From an uncultured Bacteroidales bacterium (lineage in GTDB: Bacteria > Bacteroidota > Bacteroidia > Bacteroidales > Paludibacteraceae), in the NCBI GenBank assembly GCA_902799555.1, contig CADCBB010000009.1:34105-98104 (forward strand): a stretch of 64,000 nt of DNA. Reading direction: 5' to 3'. The notes beneath the pieces were generated by a model. It did not search any database, was not told where the DNA came from, and worked only from the letters and a program-made list of their open reading frames with translations. A program made the position numbers and the translations under genes. Every line of letters begins with the position of its first letter. The stretch's first letter is position 1. Shown one piece after another: positions 17,132-62,705 of the stretch.

Positions 17132-18738
17132 ACTTCGCTTGGACCGTAGTATTGAACCGGACCCGGATAGATGTAACTGGTAACGGGATCTGCCCACTCC
17201 TCACGATGAGCCTCCAGATACTTGAACGGCTTGCCGTTGAGATCAACCAGTGCTTTCTGGATAACGGGTTTCATCTTACCGTTACGTTTCTCCATATTCA
17301 TCATCATCGTGATAGGTACACCACCTGCGATCCATGCCTCTGCGGGCTTGGTGAGGTTACGAACGAGCGACATGTAACCGGTCTTACCGGCTGCAATGAG
17401 GTGGGTAGCGGTAACACCGATCGAGTAGCAGTAGTCCGCATCGAAATTGGACGGGATAGCGCAACGACCTTCGTAACCGAAGAAGTGGTTGAGGGCAGAG
17501 AACTTACCCTTGTACTCGCCGTTGGCTTTGAGAACAGCCAGGCGTTTGCCTACCATCTCAATGAGCAGTTTCTCGGTTTCAATCTGAGATACCATCACGT
17601 TTCCGTGCGGGTCGCGGTCGAGGGTGAGCTGACGTGCAATACCCTTCGGCAGCGAACGGTAGAGTTCGCACGAAGTCGGAGTCAGTTTGGACTTCACATA
17701 TTCGCGTTTGGCATCATCGCCGTCCAAGCCGGTGAACTCCTCGTTGTTAGCGAGCATGTCGTTCAACTCTTGGATCAGAACACGCATAGCCGGGATGAAC
17801 TCGATCAGACCTTCCGGAATGAGGATCGTACCGAAGTTAAGACCTGCGTTAGCACGAGCAACGATCACCTTCACGATGTCTTCAACGATATCGTTGAGGG
17901 TCATCTTCTTTGCCTCTACTTCCTCAGAGATAAGACAGATATTCGGCTGAGCCTCCAATGCGCACTCGAGCGCGATATGGCTTGCACTACGACCCATCAA
18001 ACGGATGAAGTGCCAGTATTTCTTAGCAGAGTTAGCATCGCGTTGGATGTTACCGATCAACTCGCTATATACCTTACAAGCGGTGTCAAAACCGAAGGAG
18101 GTCTCGATCATCTCGTTTTTGAGGTCACCGTCAATGGTCTTCGGACAACCGATCACTTGGATGCCGCATTGTTTTTGCAGGTAGTACTCAGCCAGAACGC
18201 ATGCATTCGTGTTCGAGTCGTCACCACCGATGATAACTACAGCCTTGATACCGAGTTGTTTGCAAACCTCGATACCGTTGTCAAACTGCCAAGTCTCTTC
18301 GAGTTTGGTACGACCGGAACCGATGATGTCGAATCCACCGGTGTTACGGTACTCGTCGATGATGTCACCGGTGAGCTCTTGATACTTACCGTCAATCAGA
18401 CCGCTCGGACCTCCGAGGAAACCGTACAGTTTATTGTTCGGGTTCAGCGCTTTGAGACCGTCATACAGACCGGAGATGACATTGTGACCGCCGGGAGCTT
18501 GACCACCCGACAGGATAACGCCTACGTTGAACGGTTCGTCACAGTGGTTCTTACCTGTCGTCGGTTCCATAGTGATAACCGGCAGACCGTAGGTGTTCGG
18601 GAACAAAGCCTGAATGTCCTCTTGATCTGCTACCGAATGTGTTTTCTCGCCTTCTACGAGGCGTACAGCGCCCTGCAATGCTACCGGCATCTTCGGCTGA
18701 TAGCCCTGACGCGCAATTTGTAATGGGGATTTTTGCAT
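17086..18738 (-). CDS. pfp: PPi-dependent phosphofructokinase
   Basis: This 550-residue protein belongs to the long PPi-PFK group. The diagnostic [17 protein letters not shown] has Asp where ATP enzymes have Gly. [20 protein letters not shown] carries the catalytic TIDGD with the Lys typical of PPi use, and [16 protein letters not shown] is the sugar site. It catalyses the reversible fructose 6-phosphate / fructose 1,6-bisphosphate reaction with pyrophosphate. With pfkA it gives the cell two routes through this step. The promoter is at 18812-18842. Confidence 0.93.
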
Positions 18739-18811
18739 AAGATTAGTATTTTTATTTTAACGATTTAACGAATTAATGGGTTAACGTTTTCACTTAAACC
18801 AATTTTGCCTG

Positions 18812-20434: not shown

Positions 20435-20539
20435 GACTGTTGGCTGTTGGCTGTTAACTGTTAGCTATTAGCTATTAGCTGTAGGCTGTCCATGCAAGGT
20501 CTGTCGGTAGTCCTACATAATCAATACCCAGCCTTTGGG

Positions 20540-21895
20540 TTATTTCACCTCTTGACCGTGCAAGGTGAATTTCTTGTCACCGCGGAGAATATATACCTTG
20601 TTATCAATGATAACTTTTTGAACCGGATCATGGCCATAAACATCTTCGAGGCCTTCTGTTGAAGTAAACAATGCTGTGTATTCAGCATCACCTGTGACAA
20701 TGATTGTTCTCGGGTTCTCAGTGACACCATCACTCCATTGGTTAAAGGCGTATCCATCTGCTGGAATTGCTTCGAGTTCGACTTCTGTACCATAAGCATA
20801 GACTCCAATACCCACAACTTCACCATTGATAGTATTAGATGTAATAGAATACATATTCACCTCGCTATTGAATGTGGCGCGGTATGTGGCATCACCTGTA
20901 ACAACCACTACTTCCGGATCCCAGCCTGCGAAAGTATAGGTGTACTCCGCGGTATTCTGTTTAACCGGATCTGCATGGGTCGGTACAATACCGTACTCAA
21001 CCGTCGTTTGATCAATCAGCGAACCATCCTCATTCTGCCAAGTAATCGTGTAACTATTCTTGGTAGCGTTGAAAGTCGCACGGTAAGTCGCATCACCCGT
21101 TACAGCAACTAAGTTAGGAGTCCAACCTGCGAAAGTGTAGGTGTACTCCGCGGTATTCTGTTTAACCGGATCTGCATGGGTTGGTACAATACCGTACTCT
21201 ACTGTTGTTTGGTCGATCAGCGAACCATCCTCGTTCTGCCAAGTAATCGTATAACTGTTCTTGGTAGCGTTGAAAGTCGCACGGTAAGTCGCATCACCTG
21301 TTACAGCAACTACTGCCGGATCCCAGCCTGCAAAAGTATAGGTATACTCCGCGGTATTTTGTTTAACCGGATCTGCATGGGTCGGTACTACACCGTACTC
21401 AACCGTTGTTTGGTCGATCAGCGAACCATCCTCGTTCTGCCAAGTAATCGTGTAACTATTCTTGGTAGCGTTGAACGTAGCTTTGTATGTAGCGTCACCC
21501 GTTACAGCAACTACTTCCGGAGTCCAACCTGCGAAAGTGTAGGAGAACTCGGCGGTATTCTGTTTTACCGGATCGGCATGAGTTGGAACAAGGCCGTACT
21601 CTACCGTTGTTTGGTCGATCAGCGAACCATCCTCGTTCTGCCAAGTAATCGTGTAACTATTCTTGGTAGCGTTGAAAGTTGCGGTGTATGTCGCATCACC
21701 TGTTACAGCAACTACAGTCGGTGTCCAACCTGCGAAAGTGTAGGTGTACTCCGCGGTATTCTGTTTAACCGGATCAGCATGAGTCGGTACAATGCCGTAC
21801 TCAACCGTTGTTTGGTCAATCAAACTACCGAATTCATTCACTGTTCTTGGTAGCGTTGAAGGTCGCACGGTAAGTCGCATCACCTGTAACAGCAA
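20540..21895 (-). CDS. B-repeat surface protein, C-terminal part (separated by frameshift)
   Basis: This is the 3' portion of a gene that spans 20540-25116. It contains about five B-repeats of about 67 residues (TITWQNEDGSLIDQTTVEYG ... TYTFAGWTPEVVAVTGDATY), a final divergent repeat (INGEVVGIGVYAYGTEVELE) and a C-terminal element VIIDNKVYILRGDKKFTLHG-QEVK. That last element resembles a type IX sorting tail shared with the gene at 40566. At about 21840-21850, 17 nt of a repeat are missing just 5' of the NEFGSLI motif, which shifts the frame. The true protein probably continues from 21834-22655. Confidence 0.6.
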   Translation of the reverse strand: MLLQVMRLTVRPSTLPRTVNEFGSLIDQTTVEYGIVPTHADPVKQNTAEYTYTFAGWTPTVVAVTGDATYTATFNATKNSYTITWQNEDGSLIDQTTVEYGLVPTHADPVKQNTAEFSYTFAGWTPEVVAVTGDATYKATFNATKNSYTITWQNEDGSLIDQTTVEYGVVPTHADPVKQNTAEYTYTFAGWDPAVVAVTGDATYRATFNATKNSYTITWQNEDGSLIDQTTVEYGIVPTHADPVKQNTAEYTYTFAGWTPNLVAVTGDATYRATFNATKNSYTITWQNEDGSLIDQTTVEYGIVPTHADPVKQNTAEYTYTFAGWDPEVVVVTGDATYRATFNSEVNMYSITSNTINGEVVGIGVYAYGTEVELEAIPADGYAFNQWSDGVTENPRTIIVTGDAEYTALFTSTEGLEDVYGHDPVQKVIIDNKVYILRGDKKFTLHGQEVK

Positions 21896-23640
21896 CTACT
21901 GCCGGATTCCAGCCTGCAAAAGTATAGGTATACTCCGCGGTACTCTCTTTTGTTGGATTTGCGTGAGTTGGAACAACGCCGTACTCAACCGTTGTTTGGT
22001 CAATCAAACTACCGAATTCATTCTGCCATGTGATAGTATAACTGTTCTTGGTAGCGTTGAAGGTCGCACGATAAGTTGCATTACCTGTTACTGCAACAAC
22101 TGCCGGATCCCAGCCTGCAAAAGTATAGGTGTACTCTGCGGAATTTTGTTTAACCGGATCAGCATGGGTCGGAATATTGCCGTACTCTACAGTCGTTTGG
22201 TCAATTAGCGAACCATCTTCGTTCAGCCAAGTAATCGTGTAACTATTCTTGGTAGCGTTGAAAGTTGCGGTGTATGTCGCATCACCTGTTATAGCAACTA
22301 CAGTCGGTGTCCAACCTGCGAAAGTATAAGTGTACTCGGCGGTATTCTGTTTAACAGGATCAGCATGAGTCGGTACAATGCCGTACTCAACCGTTGTTTG
22401 ATCAATCAGCGAGCCATCTTCGTTCTGCCAAGTGATCGTATAACTATTCTTTGTAGCGTTGAAGGTCGCACGGTAAGTCGCATCACCTGTAACAGCAACT
22501 ACTGCCGGATTCCAGCCTGCAAAAGTATAGGTGTACTCCGCGGTATTCTGTTTAACCGGATCAGCATGAGTCGGTACAATGCCGTACTCAACCGTTGTTT
22601 GGTCAATCAAACTACCGAATTCATTCAGCGTTGAAGGTTGCACGGTATGTTGCATCTCCAGTTACGGCGACTACTGCCGGAGTCCAATCTGCAAAGGTGT
22701 AAGTATATTCTGCTGTCGCTTCTTTTGTCGGCTCAGCCGGTGCAACCGGGGTTTGACCATATTGATAGACATTACTGCTAATCTCATTTCCGTCTTCATT
22801 CAAAAATTTAACCGTATAGGACCTGATTGTAGATGTATAAGTTGCGGTGTATGTTGCGTTTTGCGTAACTTCAACAATAATAGGAAACCAACCATTGAAT
22901 GAATAGTCGTACTGAGCGGTTGAAACTTTTGTCGGATTAGCTGGAGCAATCGGCATTACACTATATTCAATACTATCGCGTTTTAATTCCGTACCATCAT
23001 CGTTCCTGAAAATAATGAGATATTTGTTTTTAGTAACATTGAAGGTTGCACGGTATGTAGCATTTCCTGTAACAGCCACTACTTCCGGAGTCCAACCTGC
23101 GAAAGTATAGGTGTACTCGGCGGTATTCTGTTTAACCGGATCGGCGTGGGTCGGTACTACACCATACTCTACCGCTGTTTGGTCGATCAGCGAACCATCC
23201 TCATTCTGCCAAATGATCGTGTAACTATTCTTTATGGCGTTGAAGGTTGCACGATAAGTCTGATCTCCTTGAACTTGAGTAACCGTTTTATCCCATCCTG
23301 CAAAGGTGTATGTATATTCTGCCGTCGCTTCTTTTGTCGGATTAGCCGGCGCAACCGGGGTTTGACCATATTGATAGACATTACTGCTAATCTCACTTCC
23401 GTCTTCATTCAAGAATTTGACCGTATAGGATCTGATTGTAGAAGTATAAGTTGCGGTATATGTTATATCTGCATGGACAGGGCTAATTGAAGGAGTCCAG
23501 CCTTTGAAAGTATATGTATATTGAGAAGTAGAGGCTTTCGTGGGAGTTTTTCCGTTGTATGTCGGAGTAGTACCCTCCGGAACCTCTGTATCCGTTTCCA
23601 GGGTTGTGCCATCATAATTCTTCCATGTTATAGTATATGT
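20640..23640 (-). repeat. Tandem B-repeat (Flg_new / InlB-type) coding array
   Basis: Units of about 201 bp encode about 67 residues around SLIDQTTVEYG, PVKQNTAEYTYTFAGW and VAVTGDATYRATFN. The central units are nearly identical in DNA sequence and the outer ones diverge. Such arrays recombine easily in the cell and collapse easily in assembly. Confidence 0.85.
21834..22655 (-). CDS. B-repeat surface protein, middle part (separated by frameshifts)
   Basis: This part has 273 residues with four B-repeats, one of which carries a complete NEFGSLI variant (at about 22011). It is joined to its upstream and downstream neighbours through deletions of 29 nt (about 22627) and 17 nt (about 21845), each ending at the same GAATGAATTC position. 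It has no plausible start of its own, so it belongs to the 20540-25116 gene. Confidence 0.55.
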   Translation of the reverse strand: MQHTVQPSTLNEFGSLIDQTTVEYGIVPTHADPVKQNTAEYTYTFAGWNPAVVAVTGDATYRATFNATKNSYTITWQNEDGSLIDQTTVEYGIVPTHADPVKQNTAEYTYTFAGWTPTVVAITGDATYTATFNATKNSYTITWLNEDGSLIDQTTVEYGNIPTHADPVKQNSAEYTYTFAGWDPAVVAVTGNATYRATFNATKNSYTITWQNEFGSLIDQTTVEYGVVPTHANPTKESTAEYTYTFAGWNPAVVAVTGDATYRATFNATKNSE

Positions 23641-50541: not shown

Positions 50542-50702
50542 GCGATGAAATCGCGTTAAATTGTTAAAATGGTTTCACATTGTGAAACGTTAAATGGTTA
50601 AAATGGTTTTTCTACGAAAAACGTTAGAAACGCTACCCATTAACGTCGAAGACCATTTTAACGTACAAGTACCATCTTAACTGTTTAACGTGCCAAAGGC
50701 AC
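50542..50702. repeat. Repeat-hairpin array A (nusA-infB gap)
   Basis: Five repeats of the 18-mer GTTAAATGGTTAAAATGG alternate with six small hairpins, each with its own sequence. The hairpins are GCGAT-gaa-ATCGC (50542-50554), GTTTCAC-att-GTGAAAC (50572-50588), GTTTTTC-tac-GAAAAAC (50606-50622), GTC-gaa-GAC (50645-50653), GTAC-aa-GTAC (50663-50672) and GTGCC-aaa-GGCAC (50690-50702). The 18-mers at 50555 and 50589 are forward, those at 50653 and 50672 inverted, and the middle one is degenerate. The array lies inside the rimP-nusA-infB operon. Confidence 0.85.
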
Positions 50703-50718
50703 CAAACTAACAACTATT

Positions 50719-53370
50719 ATGGCAATAAAGTTAATTAAAGCATGTAAAGAACTGAATATCGGTATGGCTACTCTCACCGCATGGTGCGAGAAGAACGGTC
50801 ATGCGATAGAGTCGGATCCGAACGTACGTATCGACGACGACCTCTACCTGCTGCTCGCCAAGGAGTTCAACAAGGACATGGCGGAGAAGATAGAGGCGGA
50901 TCGTCAGGCGGCGGCCCGTCAAGAGCGCGAAGAGGCGGAGCGTGCGGCCCAGGCGGCAGCTAAGGCAGCAGCAGAGAAAGCGGCAGCCGAAGAGGCAGCG
51001 CGTCGTGAGGCAGCGCGTAAGGCGGAAGAGGAAGCGCAGGCGGCAGCTAAGGCGGCGGCAGAGAAAGCGGCAGCCGAAGAAGCAGCGCGTCGTGAAGCAG
51101 CCCGTAAGGCCGAAGAAGAGGCGGAGCGTGCGGCACAGGCGGCAGCTAAGGCAGCAGCAGAGCAAGCGAAACCGCAAATCTTCACGCTGGGTAAACCCGA
51201 AGTGACCGACGGCCCGAAAGTGGTAGGTAAGATCGACCTCGATTCGATCGATACCTCGACCCGTCCGGCTAAGAAGACCAAGGAGCAGAAACGTAAGGAG
51301 CGTGAGGAGCGTCAGGCGGCACAGCAGGCTGCGCAACAGGCAGCACAACAGGCGGCAGCCGAGCGCCGCAAACGTGAGCGTATCAAGGGATCTAAAGTGG
51401 ACCCGAACGATAAACGGAATCAGACAGGTAAGCCCAAAGGAAAGAAGAACCAGCCTCGTGAGGCTTCGCAGGAAGAGGTGGATCGCGCGCTGAAGGAGAC
51501 GCTGACCCGTCTCTCGCAGAAGAAAGGTCAATCCAACACCTCTAAATATAAACGCGAGCGTCGTGAGCAGGAGCGCGAGAAGCATGAACTTGAGATGATG
51601 GAGGCACAGGAGCAATCCAAAGTGCTGAAATTGACAGAGTTCGTGACCGCGAATGACCTGGCTGTGATGATGAACGTGCCGGTGAATAAGATCATCGGTA
51701 CCTGTATGAGTCTTGGCTTATTCGTTTCGATCAACCAGCGCCTCGATGCCGAGACGATCAATCTCGTGGCTGAGGAGTTCGGTTTCCAGACGGAGTATGT
51801 AGCGGCGCATGTGGTAGAAGAGATCAATGCGGACGAGGTGATCAACGACGAAGATGTCGAGTCCCGCTGCCCGATCGTCACCGTTATGGGTCACGTTGAC
51901 CACGGTAAGACCTCTCTCCTTGACCACATCCGTAATGCGAACGTGATCGCCGGTGAGGCAGGTGGTATCACCCAGCATATCGGTGCGTACAATGTGAAGC
52001 TCAAGAACGGACAGCATATTACTTTCCTCGACACCCCGGGTCACGCGGCCTTCACCGCCATGCGTGCGCGTGGTGCGAAAGTGACGGATATCGCGATCAT
52101 CATCATCGCGGCGGACGATGCCGTCATGCCGCAGACGATCGAGGCAATCAACCATGCCCAGGCGGCAGGCGTACCGATGGTATTCGCTATCAATAAAGTG
52201 GATAAACCCGGAGCGAACCCCGATAAGATCCGTGAGCAGCTCTCGAATATGAACATCCTTGTCGAAGACTGGGGTGGTAAATACCAATGCCAGGAGATCT
52301 CCGCGAAAAAAGGAACAGGCGTGTATGAGCTGCTGGAGAAAGTGCTGCTGGAGGCAGAGTTACTCGACCTCAAGGCCAACCCCAAACGTCGTGCGAAGGG
52401 TTCGGTCATCGAGTCTTCGTTGGACAAGGGACGCGGCTATGTGGCTACGCTGCTCGTACAGGACGGAACGCTTCATATGGGCGATATCGTGCTGGCCGGT
52501 ACGTTCCACGGTCGTATCAAAGCGATGTTCAATGAGCGTGGTCAGAAGATCACGGAGGTTAAGCCCGGTGAACCCTGTTCGATCTTGGGTCTGAACGGTG
52601 CACCGCAGGCCGGTGATGAGTTCAACGTACTGCCGACGGAGCAGGAGGCGCGTGAGATAGCGAACAAACGTGAGCAACTGCAACGCGAGCAGTCCATCCG
52701 CACCAAGAAACACGTCGGTCTCGAGGAGATCGGTCGTCGTCTGGCTATCGGTGACTTCAAGGAGCTCAACATCATCGTCAAAGCCGATGTGGACGGTTCT
52801 GTCGAGGCTATTAAAGACTCGCTCATCAAACTTTCCACGGAGAATATTCAGGTCAATGTCATCCACGGAGCTGTCGGTGCTATCTCCGATAGCGATGTGA
52901 TGCTGGCTGCGGCTTCGGATGCAATCATCGTCGGCTTTAACGTACGTCCTACCGGTACGGCGCGTCGTATGGCAGAGACCGAAGAGGTCGATATCCGTAT
53001 CTACTCGATCATCTACGATGCGATCAACGAGGTGAAGGACGCTATGGCCGGTATGTTGGCTCCGGAGGTGAAGGAAGAAGTAACGGCTACCCTCGAGGTG
53101 CTGCAGACCTTCCATATCTCGAAAGTGGGTACGATCGCCGGATGTATCGTGCGAGAGGGTAAGATCAAGCGCGGTAACAAAGTACGCGTCATCCGTGACG
53201 GCATCGTGATCAAGACCGCCGAACTGGCATCCCTCAAGCATGTCAAGGATGATATCAAAGAGGCCGGTGTGAATACCGAGTGCGGTTTGAGTCTCAAGGC
53301 TTATGACGACCTGCAGGCAGGCGATATCCTCGAGTCCTTCGAAGAGATCGAAGTAGCGAAGAGCCTTTGA
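50719..53370 (+). CDS. infB: Translation initiation factor IF-2
   Basis: This protein has 883 residues. An N-terminal HTH-like IF2_N ([20 protein letters not shown]) is followed by an Ala/Glu/Arg-rich helix at about 75-155, built from near-repeats of [16 protein letters not shown] basic linker, a second IF2_N part ([20 protein letters not shown]) and the G domain come next: [38 protein letters not shown]. The C-terminal domains bind fMet-tRNA and the ribosome. It is the last gene of the operon. Confidence 0.96.
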
Positions 53371-53393
53371 TAGTGAATAATGAATAATTAATA

Positions 53394-54650
53394 ATGAATA
53401 TCCTGATGAAAAAATTATCATTATTAGTCCTTGCGGCTATCAGTTTGACAAGCTGCTGGACGTCGATCTTCACGGTAGCACCGACCGTAGAGCCGGTAGC
53501 GCCGCCGAAGACCGTTTATACGACTACGGTCACGACGCCGACGCCGAAGACTACGACGGTCACTACCGTCACGGTAACGAACTACAACTCCGATCCGTGC
53601 TTCTATCTCGACCTCAATGCCGTGGCTGCGGCTTTTGCCGAGAGCCATTCGGTACGTGAGTTCGAAGAGATCCTCAACTCGAGCCGATACATGATCAATA
53701 ACTTGGATCTAAATCGCGACGGTTGGATCGACTATCTGCGTGTGATTGAGACCTCGCGCGGGTATTATCACACCTTGTTGTTACAGGCCTGTCTGGCGCC
53801 GAGCGTGTTCCAGGATGTAGCAACGTTGATCGCGGAGCGTCGGGCAGACGCGTTGTATGTAGAGGTAGTGGGTGACCGCTATCTGTACGGCTACAACTAT
53901 ATCGTTCGTCCGGTGTTCATCAAGCGTCCGCCGCTGTATGACAGTTATGGTCATCCGCGTTATACCGCTTGGGTGTCGCCGTACTACTACGGTTATTTCC
54001 CGAGTTACTACACCCAACCGAAGCCGATCTATTTGAACCACTACCAGGCGTATGTGAATACGTACATGGCCAACCATCATTACTGCCATCACTGCGACTA
54101 TCCGAACACTGTTTTCTATAGCGGTTATACGGACATGACGCAGCAGCATCGTCGTAATGACTACGGTGCAGCGCATCCGGATCAGTCGTTTGAGCAACGC
54201 GTGACGCGTACTGCTTCGGCTACGAATGGTGTGTCTGTTCGTAATGCAGGTCAGCTGCGTAACTCGGTAGCTAAGTCATCCGAGAGCACGAAGACCACGA
54301 CCACTACGTCCGGTACGAGCAGTTCTACCAGATCGACAAGTACGTCCGCTTCGTCCACTACCTCCGGTTCGGCACGTTCGACGAATACGGCGACAACCAC
54401 GAAGAAAGTGACACCGACCAATCAACCGAACACGACAACGATCAATACACGTGTTAATACAAACGGAACGACCCGCACTACCGTGAGAACCACGGATAGT
54501 ACAGGTCGTACCAGCACTTCAACACGTTCGACGAGTACTGCGCCGGCTCGTTCTTCGAGTACGCAGACACGCTCGACGGGTTCTTCGACTAGATCCTCTC
54601 AAGACACGAAGAGCGAATCCAGCCCTCGTTCGAGCCAACGCGGACGTTAG
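53394..54650 (+). CDS. Lipoprotein with Ser/Thr-rich C-terminal half
   Basis: From the Met at 53406 the N-terminus is a lipoprotein signal, KKLSLLVLAAISLTSC, with the lipobox cysteine. A folded part spans about residues 60-270 and contains DPCFYLDLNAVAAAFAESHS, NNLDLNRDGWIDYLRVIETS and Tyr/Pro-rich sequence. It is followed by about 150 residues made almost only of Ser, Thr, Arg and Gly. The N-terminal region resembles uncharacterised Bacteroidetes proteins. The last 62 nt overlap the convergent batE gene. Microrepeats of TGAATAA precede the start. Confidence 0.65.
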   Translation: MNILMKKLSLLVLAAISLTSCWTSIFTVAPTVEPVAPPKTVYTTTVTTPTPKTTTVTTVTVTNYNSDPCFYLDLNAVAAAFAESHSVREFEEILNSSRYMINNLDLNRDGWIDYLRVIETSRGYYHTLLLQACLAPSVFQDVATLIAERRADALYVEVVGDRYLYGYNYIVRPVFIKRPPLYDSYGHPRYTAWVSPYYYGYFPSYYTQPKPIYLNHYQAYVNTYMANHHYCHHCDYPNTVFYSGYTDMTQQHRRNDYGAAHPDQSFEQRVTRTASATNGVSVRNAGQLRNSVAKSSESTKTTTTTSGTSSSTRSTSTSASSTTSGSARSTNTATTTKKVTPTNQPNTTTINTRVNTNGTTRTTVRTTDSTGRTSTSTRSTSTAPARSSSTQTRSTGSSTRSSQDTKSESSPRSSQRGR

Positions 54651-55326
54651 ACCACTCACCAAGCGTCTCACGGATGGTCACTTTCGTGCCCTCGTGGATG
54701 GTGAAGAGGTCCGTCCCGGAACGGTCCGGAGACGATTTCGCATTAACGATACCCTGTGTGATGATAGCTTCATTGCGCAGGGTATCTCTTTGATGGAGCG
54801 AACCGGCGTTGAGCCCTGCGATAAGGGAGAAGAGAAGGGCTATCCAAGCGGTATGGAAAGCCGTCTTGCGGATCCATGTCTCACGACCCAAGAGGAAGAG
54901 CAGCAAACCAATTAAAGCAAGGATGAACAGACTGATGGACAGCACCCACCAGGTGTGCTCACTCAGGCAATTCCGTACGGCGCGGGTCCAGGCCAGCAGG
55001 AAAAAGTCCTGTTCCGCAATGTTATCCGTGATGCGGCTCTGGGCAAAAACCAGATTGTATTTGGCATCCTTGTAGTTCGGCTTCAAACGCAAGGCACGTT
55101 CGTAGTTGAGGATCGCTTGTGCCAATTCTCCTTGTTTATAGCGCGCGTTACCTAAGTTGTAATAGAGCACCGCATCGGGTTGCTCGTCGATCAAGGACTG
55201 ATACAGCGTGGCTGCCTCTTCGTACTTACCCTCCGCATAGGCTGTATTCGCGATATCGAAATCGCTCTGCGCAAAGGTCAAATGACAAATGACCAATAAT
55301 AAATTACAAATTATAAAGCGTCTCAT
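54589..55326 (-). CDS. batE: BatE: TPR and SH3 aerotolerance protein
   Basis: This protein has 245 residues. Its signal peptide MRRFIICNLLLVICHLTFAQ is encoded almost wholly by ATTTGT/ATTTGTC microrepeats. Two to three TPRs follow (NTAYAEGKYEEAATLYQSLI, YYNLGNARYKQGELAQAILN), then two transmembrane helices (WWVLSISLFILALIGLLLFL, TAWIALLFSLIAGL) and a C-terminal SH3-like domain (KSSPDRSGTDLFTIHEGTKV). It is the last gene of the Bat operon. Bat proteins are linked to oxygen tolerance in Bacteroides, and their mechanism is unclear. Confidence 0.85.
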   Translation of the reverse strand: MRRFIICNLLLVICHLTFAQSDFDIANTAYAEGKYEEAATLYQSLIDEQPDAVLYYNLGNARYKQGELAQAILNYERALRLKPNYKDAKYNLVFAQSRITDNIAEQDFFLLAWTRAVRNCLSEHTWWVLSISLFILALIGLLLFLLGRETWIRKTAFHTAWIALLFSLIAGLNAGSLHQRDTLRNEAIITQGIVNAKSSPDRSGTDLFTIHEGTKVTIRETLGEWSNVRVGSNEGWIRSSCLERI

Positions 55327-57176
55327 ATTTTCTGGTCTTCTAAGTTATTAATCAAATTGGTAGTCGCGGTGTAAAGGTCGTCCATCGTATGGTCGGTGGT
55401 CGGTGCATAGCGGGCGAACTCTGCCGTAGAGAGTACATCCATGACCTCTTTGATTAGCGCCTCTGATACGCCTTTCTGACGGAGGATAGAAGCGATATTC
55501 TCCTTATTCAGGTCGGCTGTCGGGATGGACAAACGATCACTGAGATAGGTCCAGGCCGCACTTTCTATCGCCGCATAGAAGGTATTCGAATCATTTGCCT
55601 TAAGAGCGGCTGAGGCTGCTTTGAGACGTTTCTGCGCGACTTTGTTTGCCCGCTTGTATTTCATTCGCGTCAAGTCGGATGCTTCCTGAATCTGCTTGCG
55701 CAGCACAATCAGCAACACGATCGCAATAATCAGCGGAATGACATACCACAACCAGATTAGGTTGTAATTTGTGATTTGTGATTTTTGATTTGTGGTTTTC
55801 GGCGCTTTCGTATCTATATAGCGTATGTCGCTGCCTAACTGCTTGATGTCCTCTTTTTGCGTGTAGCTGACTACTGAAGGCTGATCGCTGATAGCCGACG
55901 ACTCGCCTGCTCCGCGCTTCACACGGATCGTGTATTCCGGCGTGGAGAGGGTCTTGTATGCTTTGCTATCGATATCGAAATAGCTGAAGTTGACCGCAGG
56001 GATGGTATACTCGCCTGCGCTACGCGGAATGGCGAGGTACTCGATCGATTTGGTGCCGCTGACACCGGAGGTGGTGGTCTTGAAATTATTGGTCACCTTC
56101 GGATCATAGGGCTCGAATCCTTCCGGCCAGTCGATAGCCGGCGTCTTGAGCAGTTTCATATTGCCCGAACCCGAGATATCGAGTTTGATCGTCACCGCTT
56201 CGTTGGCCTGGATCTCTGTCTGCGAGATAGAGGGCGTTAAGGTGAAATGACCTACACCTCCGCTGAAGCCTGCAGGTTTGCCGGTGGGTAGGGGCGATAC
56301 ATGAATCGTAACTCCCGGGGCGGTGAGCATCTTGGTGACATTGGTGTACGAACCGAAGAAATCATCGAAGATAGACCGCGCCCTCTGCTGTACCTGCACA
56401 CGCAGCACGGCTTCGAAATTCGCCGGGTCGATCTTGATGTCGCCTGAATGCTGCGGATAGAGGATGGTGCGGTAAAGCACCGCCGTCTGATAGTTACGGC
56501 CGTTGTAATGCTCCAATTCCGTCTGTATCTCCCCTTGCTCGAGATCCTGCTTGAGGAAGCCGGTGAACTCCGGAAGTTTGGTATTATTGGTCAGCTGGGC
56601 CACATCCACGTTTGCAAAATAAAGCTTGTACGTGATCATCAAGGCCTCCTGCTCATGCACGCGGGTCTTGGAAGCAATCGTACGCACGAAGAGGTTCTCG
56701 GAAGAAGCGGCCTGAGAGGAAGCACTCTGAGTACTCTGATTATTCTGATTATTCCGAGTACTCTGAGTCGGTTGCTGCGTCTGTTGGGGCTGATCTGCCG
56801 GCAGCACCTGGATACGTACGCCGTTGGACTGAATATTCTCGCCATCTACTTTGACGGTCGCAGGGCCGATGGTGAACGTACCCTCTTTGGTCGCCATGAG
56901 CGTGTAGGTGTAGGTCTGCTCGAAGGACGAGGAGCGTTTACCGTTGACGAAGGACGTACTGCTGCTGGTACTCGTGTAAGGACCGGACAGCACATCGAAA
57001 TCCGTGAACTCGGGTGCACGCAGGTCACGACTCCGTTGATTGACGGTGTACGACAGTTGGAACGGCCGACCGGCGATCACTTGTTTCGGGGCATTCGCCC
57101 TAAAAACGACCTCATCGGCAAGCGCACTCAATGCGATGCCGATAAAGCCCAATACTATCAATAATTTATGTTTCAT
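55323..57176 (-). CDS. batD: BatD aerotolerance protein
   Basis: This protein has 617 residues from MKHKLLIVLGFIGIALSALA, the signal peptide. Several Ig-like beta domains follow (FRANAPKQVIAGRPFQLSYT, GTFTIGPATVKVDGENIQSN, HFTLTPSISQTEIQANEAVT). One transmembrane helix lies near residue 480 (LIWLWYVIPLIIAIVLLIVL), and a cytoplasmic helical tail completes it. Just before the helix, TTTGTGATT microrepeats (55757-55795) encode TNQKSQITNYNL. It overlaps batE by 4 nt and the batBC stop is 1 nt away. Confidence 0.88.
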   Translation of the reverse strand: MKHKLLIVLGFIGIALSALADEVVFRANAPKQVIAGRPFQLSYTVNQRSRDLRAPEFTDFDVLSGPYTSTSSSTSFVNGKRSSSFEQTYTYTLMATKEGTFTIGPATVKVDGENIQSNGVRIQVLPADQPQQTQQPTQSTRNNQNNQSTQSASSQAASSENLFVRTIASKTRVHEQEALMITYKLYFANVDVAQLTNNTKLPEFTGFLKQDLEQGEIQTELEHYNGRNYQTAVLYRTILYPQHSGDIKIDPANFEAVLRVQVQQRARSIFDDFFGSYTNVTKMLTAPGVTIHVSPLPTGKPAGFSGGVGHFTLTPSISQTEIQANEAVTIKLDISGSGNMKLLKTPAIDWPEGFEPYDPKVTNNFKTTTSGVSGTKSIEYLAIPRSAGEYTIPAVNFSYFDIDSKAYKTLSTPEYTIRVKRGAGESSAISDQPSVVSYTQKEDIKQLGSDIRYIDTKAPKTTNQKSQITNYNLIWLWYVIPLIIAIVLLIVLRKQIQEASDLTRMKYKRANKVAQKRLKAASAALKANDSNTFYAAIESAAWTYLSDRLSIPTADLNKENIASILRQKGVSEALIKEVMDVLSTAEFARYAPTTDHTMDDLYTATTNLINNLEDQKI

Positions 57177-57177
57177 A

Positions 57178-58896
57178 CTACCACTCCTTCTCAACTCTGC
57201 GTTTTTTACCCTGCTGACGCTGCATCTTCTCTTGCGTATCCTGTTCGTCTTGTTCCAGGGCCTGCAAGATCTGCTCCGCTGTCTCTTTATCCATTTGGTC
57301 TTCGTTCTGCTGTTGTTGCTGCTGTTGTTGCTGTTGGTCCTGCTGATCCTGTTGTTGTTCCTGTTGCTGCTGTTGGTCCTGTTGCTGTTGTTGCTGCTGA
57401 TCCTGGTTCTGGTTTAGGTTCTGTTGCTGTTGTTGCTGTTGTTGCATCATCTCCATGGCCTTGACTAAATTATATCGCGTGTCATTATCTTTCGGATTCG
57501 CGCGCAAGGACTCCATATAGGCCTGCACGGCTTTGTCGTACTGTTGCTGCGCGAAGTTGCAATTACCGATGTTATGCATCGCTTTGGAGTACCGCGTCTT
57601 GTCTTCTTTCTTGTCCAGCATCTTGGCCGCGGTCTCAAATTCCGTCTGCGCGTCCGCGTACTTGTCTTGTTTGAAGAGGGCGTCCCCTAGGTTATAATGC
57701 GCCTCGTAGCTGTCTTTATTGGTCTCCAAGGCACGACGGTAGTCCACTTCCGCTTCGGTGAAGTTCTGTCCTCTATATTCGTGATTACCTTTGCGCACAT
57801 CGCTTGCCTCTTTCTGCGCGAAAGTGCTAAGGCTGCAAAGGATCAATGTCGTCATGACGACATGACGTCGTGTCGATTCGCCAAAGATATCAAGTTTGGT
57901 GATGGCTTTGTTCTTACGGTTGAAGATAAAGAAATCGATGACGAGTAGCAGGAGTGCGATGAGCGCAAAGCTCTGGAATTGCTCGTTGTAGTCCGTGAAG
58001 ACCTGGGTCTCGATTTCTTGCGTACCGAGTTTGTCGAGTTCTTTCTGGATGGCTTTGGTGGCGGTGTTCGTGTTGTCGCAACGCACGTATATACCTCCGC
58101 CTGCTTGCGCGATCTCGCGGCACATGTCTTCGTTCAGCTTCGAAACGACCACGTTCCCTTGCCGATCTTTGATGAAGTTATTCGTGCCCGGCATCGGGAT
58201 GGGCGAACCTTCGGGTTTACCGATACCGACCACGAGAACCTGTATGCCTTCTTCCTTGGCGCGCTTGGCTACCGCTACGGCATCGTCTTCGTGGTTCTCA
58301 CCATCGGTGATGAGGATGATGGCACGGCTCGCGTCGCTCTTCTCTCCGAAACAACGGATCGAGGTATTCAAGGCTGCACCGATGGCGGTACCTTGGGTCT
58401 TGATGAGGTTCGGCTGGATGGAATTGAGGAACATCTTCGCCGATACATAGTCACAGGTGATCGGCAGTTGGATGAACGCGTCACCGGCAAAGACGACGAG
58501 TCCGACCTTGTCGTTCACCATGTTATCCATCAGCTTGGACAGCATCTGTTTGGCGCGGTCCAGACGGTTCGGCGCCACGTCCTCCGCCATCATCGAGTTG
58601 GAGATATCGAGGGCTATGATGGCTTCGATACCTTGCCGTTTCTCCGTGCGCTCGGATTGACCGAACTGCGGACGGGCCGCGGCGATGATGAGTAAGGCCA
58701 GCGCTACCAGCACGATGCTGAACTTAACGGTCGGACGTACCCTGCTGGCATTCGGCATCAAGGCTTCCATGAGCTCAGGGTCGCCAAACTCTTCCAACTG
58801 ACGGCGTTTACGGCGCGTATAGGCCCAGTAGGCTGCTACAAAAACAGGAATCGTCCCAAGCAGCCACAATATTTCTATATTTGCAAATCGAAACAT
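57178..58896 (-). CDS. batB: BatB-BatC fusion: vWA membrane protein joined to TPR protein
   Basis: This protein has 572 residues. Residues 1-335 are BatB: N-terminal helices (IEILWLLGTIPVFVAAYWAY), a vWA domain with the MIDAS ALDISNSMMAED, GTAIGAALNTS and ITDGENHEDD, and a final helix. The frame then continues through GESTRRHVVMTTLILCSLST-FAQ, which is a BatC-type signal peptide, into TPRs (AEVDYRRALETNKDSYEAHY and two more) and a Gln-rich tail (about 500-545). In related genomes these are two genes. The join lies at ATGACG microrepeats (57847-57875). An internal ATG at 57855 would still allow BatC to be made alone. Confidence 0.85.
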   Translation of the reverse strand: MFRFANIEILWLLGTIPVFVAAYWAYTRRKRRQLEEFGDPELMEALMPNASRVRPTVKFSIVLVALALLIIAAARPQFGQSERTEKRQGIEAIIALDISNSMMAEDVAPNRLDRAKQMLSKLMDNMVNDKVGLVVFAGDAFIQLPITCDYVSAKMFLNSIQPNLIKTQGTAIGAALNTSIRCFGEKSDASRAIILITDGENHEDDAVAVAKRAKEEGIQVLVVGIGKPEGSPIPMPGTNNFIKDRQGNVVVSKLNEDMCREIAQAGGGIYVRCDNTNTATKAIQKELDKLGTQEIETQVFTDYNEQFQSFALIALLLLVIDFFIFNRKNKAITKLDIFGESTRRHVVMTTLILCSLSTFAQKEASDVRKGNHEYRGQNFTEAEVDYRRALETNKDSYEAHYNLGDALFKQDKYADAQTEFETAAKMLDKKEDKTRYSKAMHNIGNCNFAQQQYDKAVQAYMESLRANPKDNDTRYNLVKAMEMMQQQQQQQQNLNQNQDQQQQQQQDQQQQQEQQQDQQDQQQQQQQQQQNEDQMDKETAEQILQALEQDEQDTQEKMQRQQGKKRRVEKEW

Positions 58897-58933
58897 AAAG
58901 TCATTTACGATTTAGTCATTTACCATTTACGAT

Positions 58934-59707
58934 TTAGATTCCTACGACGTAGTAGCCGGCGGTAGTGTAAAAATTACGCAACCAAGGGATGGACCTCAAA
59001 ATCGGTGCCACACGGCATTTATGCAGGTGGAACTTCACCTCGTAATTCGGTTGTATAAACCACAAGGTCTTACAGAGCGTGCGGTACTGCTCTTTACGCA
59101 AGATCCGCTCAAAGCGCTCGATGGAGATACCCGTCTCTTTGATCTCTAATAAAGACTCGATCGTGTTCTCGTTCTCGCCTGCCTTGCGCATCAACCATGC
59201 GTATGTTTTCGCAGGAAGCAGATGGATGTACGGCATCTTGGATAGTTTGCTTACACATATCTGCTGATGGCCGCCGAAAGGCATATGCCATGCGGGAAAA
59301 CCGAAGAAGACCACACCGCCCGGCGCCAGAAAACGCTTGAGGAATCCCATGAACTTTTCTTGGTTATGAATATGCTCGATCACGTCGCGCAGGATGATGA
59401 GGTCATACGGCTGCGGGGTGATATTATAGATATCCTCTGCAATCAGCGTCAAGCGATCCAGATGAGGATGATCCGCCATGAACACGCGTGCATTTTCGAT
59501 CTGTCCTTTGTTCAGGTCTATACCCGTGCAGGAATAGCCGCGGTCCAGGAAAGGCTTTAAGTTACCTCCTTCTCCGCAACCTATCTCCAGGACCCGGAGG
59601 CCTTCACGCATCGGGAACACCTGCTCGATATAGGGGATCACATATTTTTCGGTGGTCTGAACTTGCTCGTTGAAGTAGAGCAGTCTGTTTTTATGACGTT
59701 CTTGCAT
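58934..59707 (-). CDS. SAM-dependent methyltransferase inside the Bat operon
   Basis: This protein has 257 residues. The class I SAM fold has motif I LRVLEIGCGEGGNLKPFLDR, the acidic residue in CTGIDLNKGQI, LIILRDVIEHIHNQEKFMGF as motif IV and GGVVFFGFPAW. A C-terminal extension with YVVGI at the end resembles methyltransferases of polysaccharide or quinone-type pathways. Bat operons normally have batA next to batB, so this gene looks inserted. It is 3 nt from batA, and 37 nt of TTTACGATTTAG microrepeats separate it from batB. The substrate is unknown. Confidence 0.82.
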   Translation of the reverse strand: MQERHKNRLLYFNEQVQTTEKYVIPYIEQVFPMREGLRVLEIGCGEGGNLKPFLDRGYSCTGIDLNKGQIENARVFMADHPHLDRLTLIAEDIYNITPQPYDLIILRDVIEHIHNQEKFMGFLKRFLAPGGVVFFGFPAWHMPFGGHQQICVSKLSKMPYIHLLPAKTYAWLMRKAGENENTIESLLEIKETGISIERFERILRKEQYRTLCKTLWFIQPNYEVKFHLHKCRVAPILRSIPWLRNFYTTAGYYVVGI

Positions 59708-59710
59708 AGC

Positions 59711-60697
59711 TTAATTACTGATGGTTCGAATTATAAAATAACGTATGATCACTTCGAGGAGCAGGCAGATGAGGGCCGCGTATAAGAACGGGGCGAAGTT
59801 CTCTGTATGCTTGCTGTACTCGCGTACCCGCAGTTTGGTCTTCTCGAGTTGGTCGATCTGCTCGTAGATGCGCTTGAGGCTACCGTTGTCGGTGGCGCGG
59901 AAGTACTGTCCGCCGGTGATGGAAGCGATGTTACGCAGCGTACCTTCGTCGAACTCGGAATCCATCGTGACGTACTGCATGCCTACCGGTGTCTTCACCG
60001 GCACGCGGGTCTGACCGTAACTGCCTACGCCGACGGTATAGACACGGATGCCGAAGGTCTTGGCGATCTCGGCAGCGGTCTGCGGGTCGATATCTCCGCG
60101 GTTATTGGATCCGTCGGTGAGCAGGATGACCACTTTCGATTTGGTCTGGCTGTCTTTCATGCGGTTCACCGCATTGGCCAGGCCTAAGCCGATAGCCGTA
60201 CCGTCTTCGATCATACCGTACTCGACGGACTTGAAGAGGTTAACGAGCACCGCATGGTCGGTGGTCAGCGGGCATTGCGTGAAACTCTCACCGGCGAAGA
60301 CCACGAGACCGATCTGGTCGTTGGGACGCGCGATGACGAAGTCTGATGCTACCTGCTTAGCCGCCTCCAGACGGTTAGGCTTGAGATCCTCCGCCAGCAT
60401 CGTACCCGATATATCCAACGCCATCATGATGTCGATACCTTCGGTCGATTCCGATGACCAGCGGTTCGTTAGTTGCGGACGTGCCAGGGCGATGCTCAGG
60501 AGCGTCACGACCGCTACACGCAACGCAAACGGCACGTGGAGCAACCAGATGCGCCAACTCTTCGGCTGGGCAGCCAAGGTCGTCGTGTCCGAAATCTGCA
60601 CGCTCGCGTCGCTCTTCCATAACTCATACGCGTACCACGCGATGATAGGAATAAGGAGCAGCAGTAAAAATAAATATCCGGGATTAGCAAAAGTCAT
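59711..60697 (-). CDS. batA: BatA: vWA membrane protein
   Basis: This protein has 328 residues. N-terminal helices (YLFLLLLLIPIIAWYAYELW, VPFALRVAVVTLLSIALARP) are followed by a vWA domain with the MIDAS MMALDISGTMLAED, GTAIGLGLANAVN and LLTDGSNNRGD. A C-terminal helix is FAPFLYAALICLLLEVIIRY. It acts in the inner membrane with BatB. Gaps upstream hold GATTTTACGATTGAC microrepeats (60708-60755). Confidence 0.9.
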   Translation of the reverse strand: MTFANPGYLFLLLLLIPIIAWYAYELWKSDASVQISDTTTLAAQPKSWRIWLLHVPFALRVAVVTLLSIALARPQLTNRWSSESTEGIDIMMALDISGTMLAEDLKPNRLEAAKQVASDFVIARPNDQIGLVVFAGESFTQCPLTTDHAVLVNLFKSVEYGMIEDGTAIGLGLANAVNRMKDSQTKSKVVILLTDGSNNRGDIDPQTAAEIAKTFGIRVYTVGVGSYGQTRVPVKTPVGMQYVTMDSEFDEGTLRNIASITGGQYFRATDNGSLKRIYEQIDQLEKTKLRVREYSKHTENFAPFLYAALICLLLEVIIRYFIIRTISN

Positions 60698-60748
60698 ACT
60701 AATTGACGATTTTACGATTGACGATTTTACGATTGACGATTTTACGAT

Positions 60749-61645
60749 TTATTGGACGATTGACTGATTGATTGGTTCATTTGGCAATTTGGTCTCATTG
60801 ACAAAATCGTACGCTGTGGTCAGCGCCATCTCGTTCTCATCCGGCGTCGTGGTCCATTTGGCGAACTTGACGAGATCGGCGAGTTGGAGCATCTTACTGA
60901 GTTTAGCGAACAACTCTTTGTCGATCAGCGGCTTCATCGCGCGGAGCGTCTCATCGGAGGTCTTCTCCGTACTCTGCACGTCAAAACGGCGACCGATATA
61001 TTCGCGCACTACATCCGTCAGTTCGGTATGGTACTCTTTGGTCTTACCGTCCTTCCAGATCTTCGCCTCTTTGATGGCGTCGAGTTTCTCCAACGCCACC
61101 TCATCGGCAGGACGTAGCAACTCCGGTTCGATGGGCTCTTCTTCCTGTTTGCGGTACGTGTCGTACTTGCGCCAGAGGCGGAAAGCCAGGTCGATCAAGA
61201 GGAACAAGCCCAGCACGATCAGGATCCAACGGATGATGCCCCACCAATAGATCGGAGCACGTTCGATATCTTTGATATCGGTGATGGCATTGGAGCTGTC
61301 CACCTCGAAGGGTTGAATGACGTTGAGCGCCATCGGATCGGTCCAGAACGTATCTTCTCCGCGCGTTACATAAAGCGGCTCGATGGCGAAGAGGCTGTCT
61401 TTGAAGGAGGTCAGCATCAGGTCCTGCTGCATCTGAATGCGGCCGTCGGGTAGGGTAGTCGTATCGATCTTGCCCTGCTCGACTATCTCGATGCCGTCTT
61501 GCAGCTGATCGCCGAAGACAGGCATCGTCACCTGCTCGGTCGCGTCATGCGTCACGCTCAGGTGCATCGCCGTCTGGTCGCCCAGCATCAGCATCGTCGA
61601 GTCAATGCTCGCGGAAACTACTATCGCTAATAATAAATTGATCAT
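60749..61645 (-). CDS. Membrane protein of the Bat operon
   Basis: This protein has 298 residues. It has a signal peptide or short N-terminus (INLLLAIVVSASIDS), an extracytoplasmic beta domain, one transmembrane helix at about 135-160 (WWGIIRWILIVLGLFLLIDL) and a cytoplasmic helical region (DEVALEKLDAIKEAKIWKDG, KTKEYHTELTDVVREYIGRR). This layout fits the DUF4381-type gene found between DUF58 and batA in Bacteroidetes. The start overlaps the DUF58 stop by 4 nt. Confidence 0.75.
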   Translation of the reverse strand: MINLLLAIVVSASIDSTMLMLGDQTAMHLSVTHDATEQVTMPVFGDQLQDGIEIVEQGKIDTTTLPDGRIQMQQDLMLTSFKDSLFAIEPLYVTRGEDTFWTDPMALNVIQPFEVDSSNAITDIKDIERAPIYWWGIIRWILIVLGLFLLIDLAFRLWRKYDTYRKQEEEPIEPELLRPADEVALEKLDAIKEAKIWKDGKTKEYHTELTDVVREYIGRRFDVQSTEKTSDETLRAMKPLIDKELFAKLSKMLQLADLVKFAKWTTTPDENEMALTTAYDFVNETKLPNEPINQSIVQ

Positions 61646-62529
61646 TGTTTGAATAAACGCATTAATGCTTTGACGTAATCTTCGTCCGTGCGAACAGACA
61701 CATTATTCATTCCGGTCTTCGTATAGACGTTCTCCAATGCTTCTTGTTGGTCGCGCCAAGCCTTGGCATAGGCGGCTCGCACGCTCTCCAGCGAGGTATC
61801 AGCCCATACGCGGGCTCCTGTCTCGGGGTCACGCAACTTGACGAGCCCGACATTCGGCATCTCGGCATCGCGACGATCATAGATCTGAATGGCACTCAGG
61901 TCATGCTTGCGACTCGCGATGACGATAGGCGGTACCTCGCCTTTTTTCTCGGATGTCGCGCTGAACGTGCCGTCCATCATATCCGAGATCAGGAAGGCGG
62001 TACAACGTCTCTTCTGCGCATTGGTCAGGTACTGCAGCGCCGCGTTGATATTCGTGCCGGTATGCTCGGGCTCGAAGGTCAGCAGCTCGCGGATGATATG
62101 CAGCACATGGCTCTTACCTTTCTTGGGCGGGATGAATTTCTCCACTTGGTCGCTAAAGAAGATCACACCGACCTTGTCGTTGTTCTCGATCGTGGAGAAA
62201 GCGAGAGTGGCGGCTACTTCGGCCATCGTGTCACGTTTCATCTGGCTCACCGTACCAAAATTACGGCTACCGCTGACATCGATGAGCAACATCACCGTTA
62301 ACTCGCGTTCCTCTTCATAGACCTTGATGTACGGCCGGTTCATACGCGCTGTGACGTTCCAGTCGATGGACCGTACGTCATCGCCAGGCTGGTACTCACG
62401 CACCTCGCTGAACGCCATACCACGCCCCTTGAACTGGCTGTGGTACTCGCCCGCGAAGATGTTGCGACTCAAGCCATGCGTCTTGATCTCGATCTTCCTT
62501 ACCCGTTGTAATAACTCTTCACTTGTCAT
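61642..62529 (-). CDS. DUF58 domain protein
   Basis: This protein has 295 residues. The DUF58 hallmark lies at about residues 35-75 (GRGMAFSEVREYQPGDDVRS, IDWNVTARMNRPYIKVYEEE). A vWA-like fold follows (VMLLIDVSGSRNFG with a DxSxS-like site, AFLISDMMD). Proteins of this type pair with MoxR ATPases and are thought to act with them in assembly or metal loading of vWA proteins. It lies between moxR (177 nt upstream, separated by the repeat-hairpin array) and the operon membrane protein. Confidence 0.9.
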   Translation of the reverse strand: MTSEELLQRVRKIEIKTHGLSRNIFAGEYHSQFKGRGMAFSEVREYQPGDDVRSIDWNVTARMNRPYIKVYEEERELTVMLLIDVSGSRNFGTVSQMKRDTMAEVAATLAFSTIENNDKVGVIFFSDQVEKFIPPKKGKSHVLHIIRELLTFEPEHTGTNINAALQYLTNAQKRRCTAFLISDMMDGTFSATSEKKGEVPPIVIASRKHDLSAIQIYDRRDAEMPNVGLVKLRDPETGARVWADTSLESVRAAYAKAWRDQQEALENVYTKTGMNNVSVRTDEDYVKALMRLFKQ

Positions 62530-62538
62530 AAAATCTAA

Positions 62539-62705
62539 GTGCTTCGCACGTTAAATGGTTAAAATGGTGCTACGCACGTTAAATGGTTAAGATGGTGTCT
62601 TCGACACGTTCATTTTCTTGCTGCATAGTAACGTCACGCAGTGACCATTTTAACTGTTTAACGTCACGCAGTGACCATCTTAACGCTTTAACGCGATGAA
62701 GTCGC
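62539..62705. repeat. Repeat-hairpin array B (moxR-DUF58 gap)
   Basis: The architecture matches 50542-50702. The hairpins are GTGC-ttc-GCAC (62539-62549), GTGC-tac-GCAC (62567-62577), GTGTC-ttc-GACAC (62595-62607), GTCAC-gca-GTGAC (62633-62645), the same again (62663-62675) and GCGAT-gaa-GTCGC (62693-62705). They alternate with 18-mers at 62550 and 62578 (forward), a degenerate middle, and 62645 and 62675 (inverted). The 18-mer at 62550-62567 is identical to that at 50589-50606. It interrupts the bat operon just after moxR. Confidence 0.85.

Follow-up and report, generated by a model that had tools for sequence, protein, structure and literature searches.

The window analysed here is a stretch of 64,000 nt from an uncultured Bacteroidales bacterium of the Paludibacteraceae (GCA_902799555.1, contig CADCBB010000009.1, positions 34,105 to 98,104). 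It carries two composite elements, at 50542–50702 and 62539–62705, in which copies of an 18-mer alternate with small hairpins. We consider it probable that both are gene-less copies of an apparently mobile element family of gut Paludibacteraceae that is linked to genes for S23 proteins. The full-length form, roughly 0.6 kb, consists of an array of 18-mer repeats and mini-hairpins, an S23 gene and an inverted array, an organization like that of the REPtron (REP, repetitive extragenic palindromic) with a protein of predicted Avd-like fold in place of the Y1 nuclease. The earlier note on this DNA, made from the letters of the window, described the layout of the two elements; it missed that elements of this layout are gene-less members of a dispersed family which in its full-length form encodes an S23 protein, and that many repeat families, this one among them, are linked to S23 genes.

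The full-length form and its S23 gene

Loci L001–L119 and at least 109 stretches from a repeat–hairpin–repeat pattern scan of named genomes were scanned for forward and inverted GTTAAA copies 150–3500 bp apart. Four loci were found, and the longest open reading frame (ORF) in each, of 127–131 aa, encodes an S23 protein (PF05635, E 6e-32; 110.4 bits, cut-off 33.8), which also matches TIGR02436, four helix bundle protein (104.5 bits, cut-off 24). These first four proteins form one clade (support 97/88), and a fifth S23 locus (L180) came from an S23 search of the same stretches. In the window's own genome (G000; 2.34 Mb, 82 contigs) the full-length copy lies outside the window, on contig C31; a second, weaker S23 gene of that genome (53 bits) is found at 24714–25010 of contig C12.

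Close homologues of this protein (at least 69% identity over 70 aa) are present in nine of 101 genomes of the genus, and every one of the nine is enclosed by inverted GTTAAA arrays; the homologues in G000 and G001 had been known beforehand. The next three homologues (57–61%) lack inverted GTTAAA arrays; a lone forward match lies 270 nt upstream of one of them, and a different array is common to two. The nine genomes with a close homologue hold 2, 3, 10, 12, 14, 19, 31, 40 and 54 copies of the 18-mer, whereas the median is 0 in the 92 genomes that have none (p 5e-6, with no control for phylogeny). The S23 genes and their kin occupy five different gene junctions, all between protein genes in the copies examined. 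At the junction used in G000, an S23 gene is present in G000 and G052 and absent from the 200 nt before the next gene in 28 of 30 orthologous loci, three of which (L475, L478, L483) hold other short arrays.

S23 genes at large are also associated with repeats. PF05635 was found in 22 of 31 genomes of the genus (58 places over the cut-off, 51 of them examined). Among 148 Bacteroidota genomes 116 had a match, 113 of these over the cut-off, with up to 16 matches in a genome; none of 14 control genomes did. For each S23 gene, the stretch of approximately 150 nt ahead of the gene was aligned locally with the reverse-complemented 150 nt behind it, and a score of at least 14 was taken as the threshold. 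This was reached by 32 of 50 S23 genes in the genus, or 28 of 46 when one duplicate was dropped along with the three loci that had been detected by way of their arrays, compared with 6 of 150 other ORFs of the same loci (random sample) and 17 of 194 swapped S23 flanks, some of which share a repeat family. For the phylum sample, the 30 best-scoring places, 28 with both flanks, the figures were 21 of 28 for S23, 8 of 68 for other ORFs and 6 of 104 for swapped flanks. By eye, different S23 clades bear different repeats. S23 genes with arrays of their own lie upstream of the same nuo-like gene in three genomes of the phylum sample (L437, L454, L432).

A structure model of the L138 protein (predicted local distance difference test, pLDDT, 89.6) found the S23 structures 2gsc and 2rld as its best Foldseek matches, followed by Avd of the diversity-generating retroelement (DGR) of a Bordetella phage (4dwl; TMq 0.72, probability 1.00, E 0.016) and the DGR ribonucleoprotein chain 8ubb_D (E 0.063). 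The model suggests that the S23, or four-helix-bundle, protein has an Avd-like fold. A single S23 sequence reached only 2gsc, weakly (E 0.0065); a profile reached 2rld and 2gsc.

Dispersal and conservation of the elements

The earlier note had proposed a search for the 18-mer with a palindromic gap; a scan of named genomes for a repeat–hairpin–repeat pattern gave at least 109 stretches. The absence of other genomic copies, which that note had envisaged, together with a lack of hairpin covariation between strains, as the outcome that would make the layout coincidence or local slippage, did not occur: G000 holds 62 matches at up to three mismatches, against five for the reversed pattern. The distribution of the repeat is patchy and taxon-restricted. 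Its consensus, GTTAAANNGTTAARATGG, is found at up to one mismatch in 50 of the 101 genomes of the genus, at 0 to 54 copies per genome, reversed controls giving at most 4 in any of them. Among 16 genomes of other genera three have a match, two with one each and G034 with 10, fewer than the 18 of its controls. In the 80 stretches listed from the pattern scan, the record titles name Paludibacteraceae, (uncultured) Bacteroidales and, twice, a Bacteroidia bacterium, and many of the records bear ruminant sample names.

Most copies lie no more than a few tens of bases from a gene end. Of 78 elements, 75 stood between ORFs, 60 of these between co-directional genes, at a median distance of 20–23 nt from the ORF edges, and they occur in both orientations. 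At a groES–groEL-like junction, GTTAAA elements are oppositely oriented in L020 (G000) and L056 (G001), and we take these for independent insertions because the orientations differ between the two species.

Elements shared by G000 and G015 are more alike than their surroundings: five of seven, counted after exclusion of L011/L072 (large deletion) and L018/L078 (diverged left end), are 96.6% identical (512/530) compared with 86.7% in the flanks (864/996; p 6e-11). This speaks for constraint or homogenization, and the selection on structure that the earlier note had suggested finds support in it in so far as constraint is seen. One orthologous element is essentially identical in three species (L063, L109 and L115, in G001, G002 and G004), whose flanks are 85–88% identical.

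Hairpins, gene ends and empty sites

As derived from copies of G000 and six other genomes, the unit of the family is an outer hairpin, k copies of GTTAAANN, GTTAARATGG, an inner hairpin and GTTAAANNGTTA; long forms are two units, inverted relative to each other and joined at a centre. Spacers and outer ends were counted over 80 of the at least 109 pattern stretches together with L001–L119, near-identical orthologues being counted separately. Perfect hairpins with loops of up to 5 nt occupy 206 of 219 distinct inner spacers and comprise 47 different stems; redealing right halves among spacers of the same length gave 75 on average and never more than 90 (500 trials). The proposal in the earlier note that pairing is kept and stem sequence free is upheld by the stems of 4–8 bp, in which 728 of 737 inner pairs are Watson–Crick and only 230 are when the partner is slid by one. 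Orthologous hairpins show paired changes, for example in L003/L106 and L090/L097. On the 18-mer strand, the loops that occur most often are TGC (57), TTC (46), TAC (27) and TTT (18); most loops are T-N-C, which is GNA on the opposite strand. DNA mini-hairpins of the type C(GNA)G have extra stability. Within the 18-mer, the two N positions have an entropy of 1.8–1.9 bits in G000, as against 0–0.23 for T10, T11 and A12, in copies whose selection by likeness to the consensus inflates conservation. The variety of stems, the loop counts and the entropies argue that the loop and parts of the 18-mer are constrained and the stems free.

Hairpins are also found at the outside of the elements. A perfect stem of at least 6 bp abuts the first repeat at 65 of 150 outermost ends, compared with 3.1% when the tails were grafted onto other loci, and stems of at least 8 bp are present at 38 of 150 (25%; 0.3% in the grafted control); some few of the ends scored as outermost are really inner. 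In several loci the 5' arm of the outer hairpin is formed by the last codons of the adjoining gene, and some outermost hairpins consist of the end of the neighbouring gene and an inverted copy of it, a copy that is missing at empty sites. Thus the filled locus L006 of G000 reads TTGGCAATTATC-GCGGCGA-GATAATTGCCAA, and in G015, where the site is empty, the gene ends ATTATCGCTGCTCGCTAA and is followed by the next gene. Similarly, L014 of G000 reads GGAATTTCCGG-ATTGA-CCGGAAATTCC, and its empty counterpart in G015 GGAATTTCCGGATTA|ATGGC. At the second of these gene ends, that of L014, four of 30 loci (L347, L349, L351, L359) carry an inverted gene-end copy, with four different spacers, and immediately beyond each of the four fold-backs comes a short-repeat array belonging to one of three families; orthologues with arrays and no fold-back exist as well, e.g. 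L353. Our automated array detector was too lax, firing on 45 of 50 nusA gaps, and its counts were therefore not used; arrays beside five fold-backs were read by eye. That gene-end fold-backs adjoin arrays agrees with the palindrome-making copying process that the earlier note had offered as an alternative to selection.

The elements and other arrays of the window

The window holds eight matches of the 18-mer (R; inverted copy, R') at up to three mismatches, where dinucleotide shuffles lead one to expect 0.07, and the mirror-symmetrical layout of hairpins and 18-mers reported in the earlier note is present at both loci, at matching coordinates. As also reported, the two share the 18-mer, with exact copies at 50589–50606 and 62550–62567. 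The regularity of the layout held for its overall order and failed in three places, pointed out below. Both elements fold better as single-stranded DNA than do shuffles (z −3.5 and −4.5 for the two strands of element 1, −3.0 and −2.9 for element 2). Pfam agrees with the genes named before, nusA/infB around element 1 and DUF58/MoxR around element 2. In the description that follows, hairpins and R are on the plus strand and R' on the minus strand.

Element 1 (50542–50702), a gene-less copy in the nusA–infB gap, begins directly after the nusA stop codon with the outer hairpin GCGAT GAA ATCGC (50542–50554). There follow R with one mismatch (50555–50572), the inner hairpin GTTTCAC ATT GTGAAAC (50572–50588), the exact R and the inner hairpin GTTTTTC TAC GAAAAAC with a T-N-C loop (50606–50622). 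Beyond a degenerate centre (50623–50644) stand the inner hairpin GTC GAA GAC with a GNA loop (50645–50653), a truncated R', CCATTTTAAC (50653–50662), the inner hairpin GTAC AA GTAC, irregular in its 2-nt loop (50663–50672), R' with three mismatches (50672–50689) and the outer hairpin GTGCC AAA GGCAC (50690–50702). Element 2 (62539–62705), likewise gene-less and lying between the DUF58 and MoxR genes, comprises the outer hairpin GTGC TTC GCAC (62539–62549), the exact R, the inner hairpin GTGC TAC GCAC (62567–62577), R with one mismatch (62578–62595) and the inner hairpin GTGTC TTC GACAC (62595–62607). Its centre (62608–62632) contains GCTGCATAGTAACG, common to other long forms of G000 in either orientation, and is followed by the inner hairpin GTCAC GCA GTGAC with a GNA loop (62633–62645), R' with two mismatches (62645–62662), a second GTCAC GCA GTGAC (62663–62675), R' with three mismatches (62675–62692) and the outer hairpin GCGAT GAA GTCGC (62693–62705), which contains one mismatched pair and ends just past the MoxR stop codon. 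The earlier note had also suspected a degenerate relative at 18752–18787, on the minus strand upstream of the ORF at 17086–18738; degenerate GTTAAANN-type repeats are indeed present, but as a plain array that has no hairpins.

Other short-repeat families use the same junctions. Across 30 nusA–infB loci, the gap in relatives is short and native or is taken up by longer unrelated DNA or by other short-repeat arrays, and in four of them hairpins like GCGATGAAATCGC stand before other repeat families. Several octamer families are found downstream of a tpiA-like gene (this and the names nqr, ftsQ, ftsA, pgi, ffh, folD, groES, groEL and nuo were given from the sequence by eye). A second dispersed family, CCAAATGGTAAATGA, is present in 68 of the 101 genomes at up to 195 matches, and private hairpins were not seen by eye in 16 of its loci inspected. 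Within the window, short tandem arrays with units of 7–15 nt lie at 3995–4026, 5355–5385, 5940–5971, 6146–6179, 12693–12722, 20436–20489, 53370–53400 and 60702–60750, and several resemble the S23-flanking arrays of relatives. The solo array at 5940–5971 matches the S23 flank L421 with a score of 30 of 32 (best of 50 controls, 17), and that at 3995–4026 matches L415 with 28 of 32 (best control, 15); for the arrays at 58899, 60702 and 20436 the best control scores about equal the S23-flank match. A 201-bp unit (82% matches) is repeated in tandem approximately nine times over minus-strand ORFs at 20868–22609, which probably encode a repeat protein.

Discussion

We hypothesize that the S23 protein acts in trans, recognizing its own repeats and mini-hairpins and thereby driving the mobility of the family. 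Since it has no recognized catalytic domain, it would borrow a polymerase, a reverse transcriptase or a repair route. In some insertions the strand of a gene end may fold back and be copied, which would give rise to the outer palindrome, and templated correction or selection on structure would then keep the stems paired while their sequence drifts.

Elements of this organization have counterparts. In the REPtron, a TnpA_REP (RAYT; REP-associated tyrosine transposase) gene likewise stands between short palindromic repeats of a kind of its own, there are dispersed gene-less intergenic copies, and the type of repeat is specific to a protein subclass (PMC6006769). The likeness is one of organization only: the protein here is S23 and not a Y1/HUH nuclease, the stems vary between copies with loop and spacer repeat kept, and there are short tandem repeat arrays. 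With the DGR, the elements would share an Avd-like fold and a hairpin with a free stem and a conserved loop; in the DGR target hairpin the structure of the stem is needed and its sequence free, and the GRNA loop is sequence-dependent (PMC3240598; 4dwl). The resemblance of our GNA loops to GRNA is an analogy and not a test, and the elements differ in having GNA-type triloops and many hairpins each. Neither a template/variable repeat nor a reverse transcriptase was present beside the S23 genes examined, no genome-wide search for reverse transcriptases having been made.

The intervening sequence (IVS) of 23S rRNA in Coxiella burnetii is likewise small, bears terminal inverted repeats and encloses an S23 gene, upstream of which lie tandem heptamers (PMC4990558). 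It has been called selfish; the origin of IVSs was described as unclear and their mobility had been proposed, so the idea of S23 mobility is not new, and the S23 protein itself is given there as without known function (PMC4990558). An IVS differs in lying in rRNA and being cut out of the transcript, whereas the present elements lie between protein genes and have cognate dispersed arrays. The full-length copies examined are not in a 23S rRNA helix; their S23 ORF lies between inverted repeats. The statement in the earlier note that no described family has this form stands for the layout, of which the literature searched holds no account, but tandem heptamers beside one S23 gene had been published; cognate dispersed repeats of S23 outside rRNA were not found in that literature. 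BrickBuilt, a miniature inverted-repeat transposable element (MITE) of Porphyromonas gingivalis, is again an intergenic Bacteroidales element with short tandem repeats and small inverted ends; its 23-nt repeats have no spacers, and neither alternating private hairpins nor a link to S23 appears in the abstract (PMC4596501). Small dispersed gene-less copies of a longer gene-bearing element are a MITE-like trait of the present family.

A number of observations weigh against an S23-linked mobile family. The copy-rich genomes G015 (46 copies, 78% complete) and G059 (34 copies, 95%) have no close S23 homologue in their assemblies, and 18 of 46 S23 genes in the genus and 7 of 28 in the phylum sample fall below the array score. 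T-N-C loops (stems of at least 2 bp) at other S23 genes number 95 in 45 genes against 319 in 285 controls, an enrichment so mild that we do not claim GNA-type hairpins to be general for S23 genes. At 85 of the 150 outermost ends there is no stem of at least 6 bp, and gene-end fold-backs are no rule, being found (at 7 bp or more) at one of 30 loci of the tpiA-like gene and none of 50 at nusA, besides the four of 30 given above. No clear target-site duplication was seen: three filled/empty pairs (L006/L093, L014/L089 and L093/L006) show no consistent duplication, with TA possibly duplicated in one. The match to Avd has a weak Foldseek E-value, and at E≤1 Avd is out of reach of the sequence profile. 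Neither movement nor a catalytic partner was found, reverse transcriptases and DDE transposases not having been searched genome-wide. Finally, that shared elements are more conserved than their flanks is unexpected for a purely parasitic element.

This last point is the main support for a different explanation, which we regard as unlikely though not negligible: that the elements are intercistronic modules beneficial to the host, acting in RNA processing, stability or translation insulation, perhaps bound by an RNA-binding S23 protein, and spread and kept by selection. The near-identical element of three species, the position-specific constraint in the 18-mer and the placing of elements close to ORF edges and mostly between co-directional genes would all be accounted for in this way. 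Against it, presence is patchy, orthologous sites beside essential-looking genes are empty, the same junction has unrelated repeat families in other species, and elements occur in both orientations.

It is very improbable that the family is an ordinary REP or MITE moved by a Y1 (TnpA_REP) or DDE transposase, with the S23 gene a passenger. The hairpins, intergenic sites and patchy copy number do resemble those of REPs and MITEs (PMC6006769, PMC4596501), but the ORF between the inverted arrays is S23 in four of four loci, and terminal inverted repeats were not seen any more than clear target-site duplications. The REP/RAYT candidate was rejected, as Y1_Tnp (PF01797) does not track copy number in the genomes compared: it has no match in the copy-rich G001, G002 and G015 and is below the cut-off in G000 (DDE transposases were not searched for genome-wide). 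Equally remote is replication slippage with template switching alone, building arrays and hairpins in place with no element-specific enzyme, for, although template switching can create and maintain perfect hairpins (PMC8794818), fold-backs adjoin three different repeat families and array length differs between orthologues, it leaves unexplained both the sharing of one 18-mer by tens of sites per genome and the match of repeats to S23 clades.

Returning to the S23-linked mobile family, a wider proposal can be made, which we advance tentatively and hold to be possible rather than probable: a large class of mobile elements, so far undescribed, may be built around stand-alone S23 genes, whose products are Avd-like. 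Each such protein would recognize its own tandem repeats and conserved-loop DNA mini-hairpins and would move itself and its gene-less derivatives between genes by borrowing a polymerase or reverse transcriptase, without a known transposase; the terminal palindrome would come from fold-back and copying of the target, and the rRNA IVS would be a special case. If so, the cognate repeat link would make the orphan S23 family a candidate engine of a widespread element class, and could explain, in a testable way, how rRNA intervening sequences and many of the intergenic short tandem repeats of Bacteroidota arose. The family would also provide a natural example of DNA hairpins that retain pairing and loop as the sequence of the stem drifts, and the step that forms the palindrome can be tested directly at gene ends that are filled in some orthologues and empty in others.

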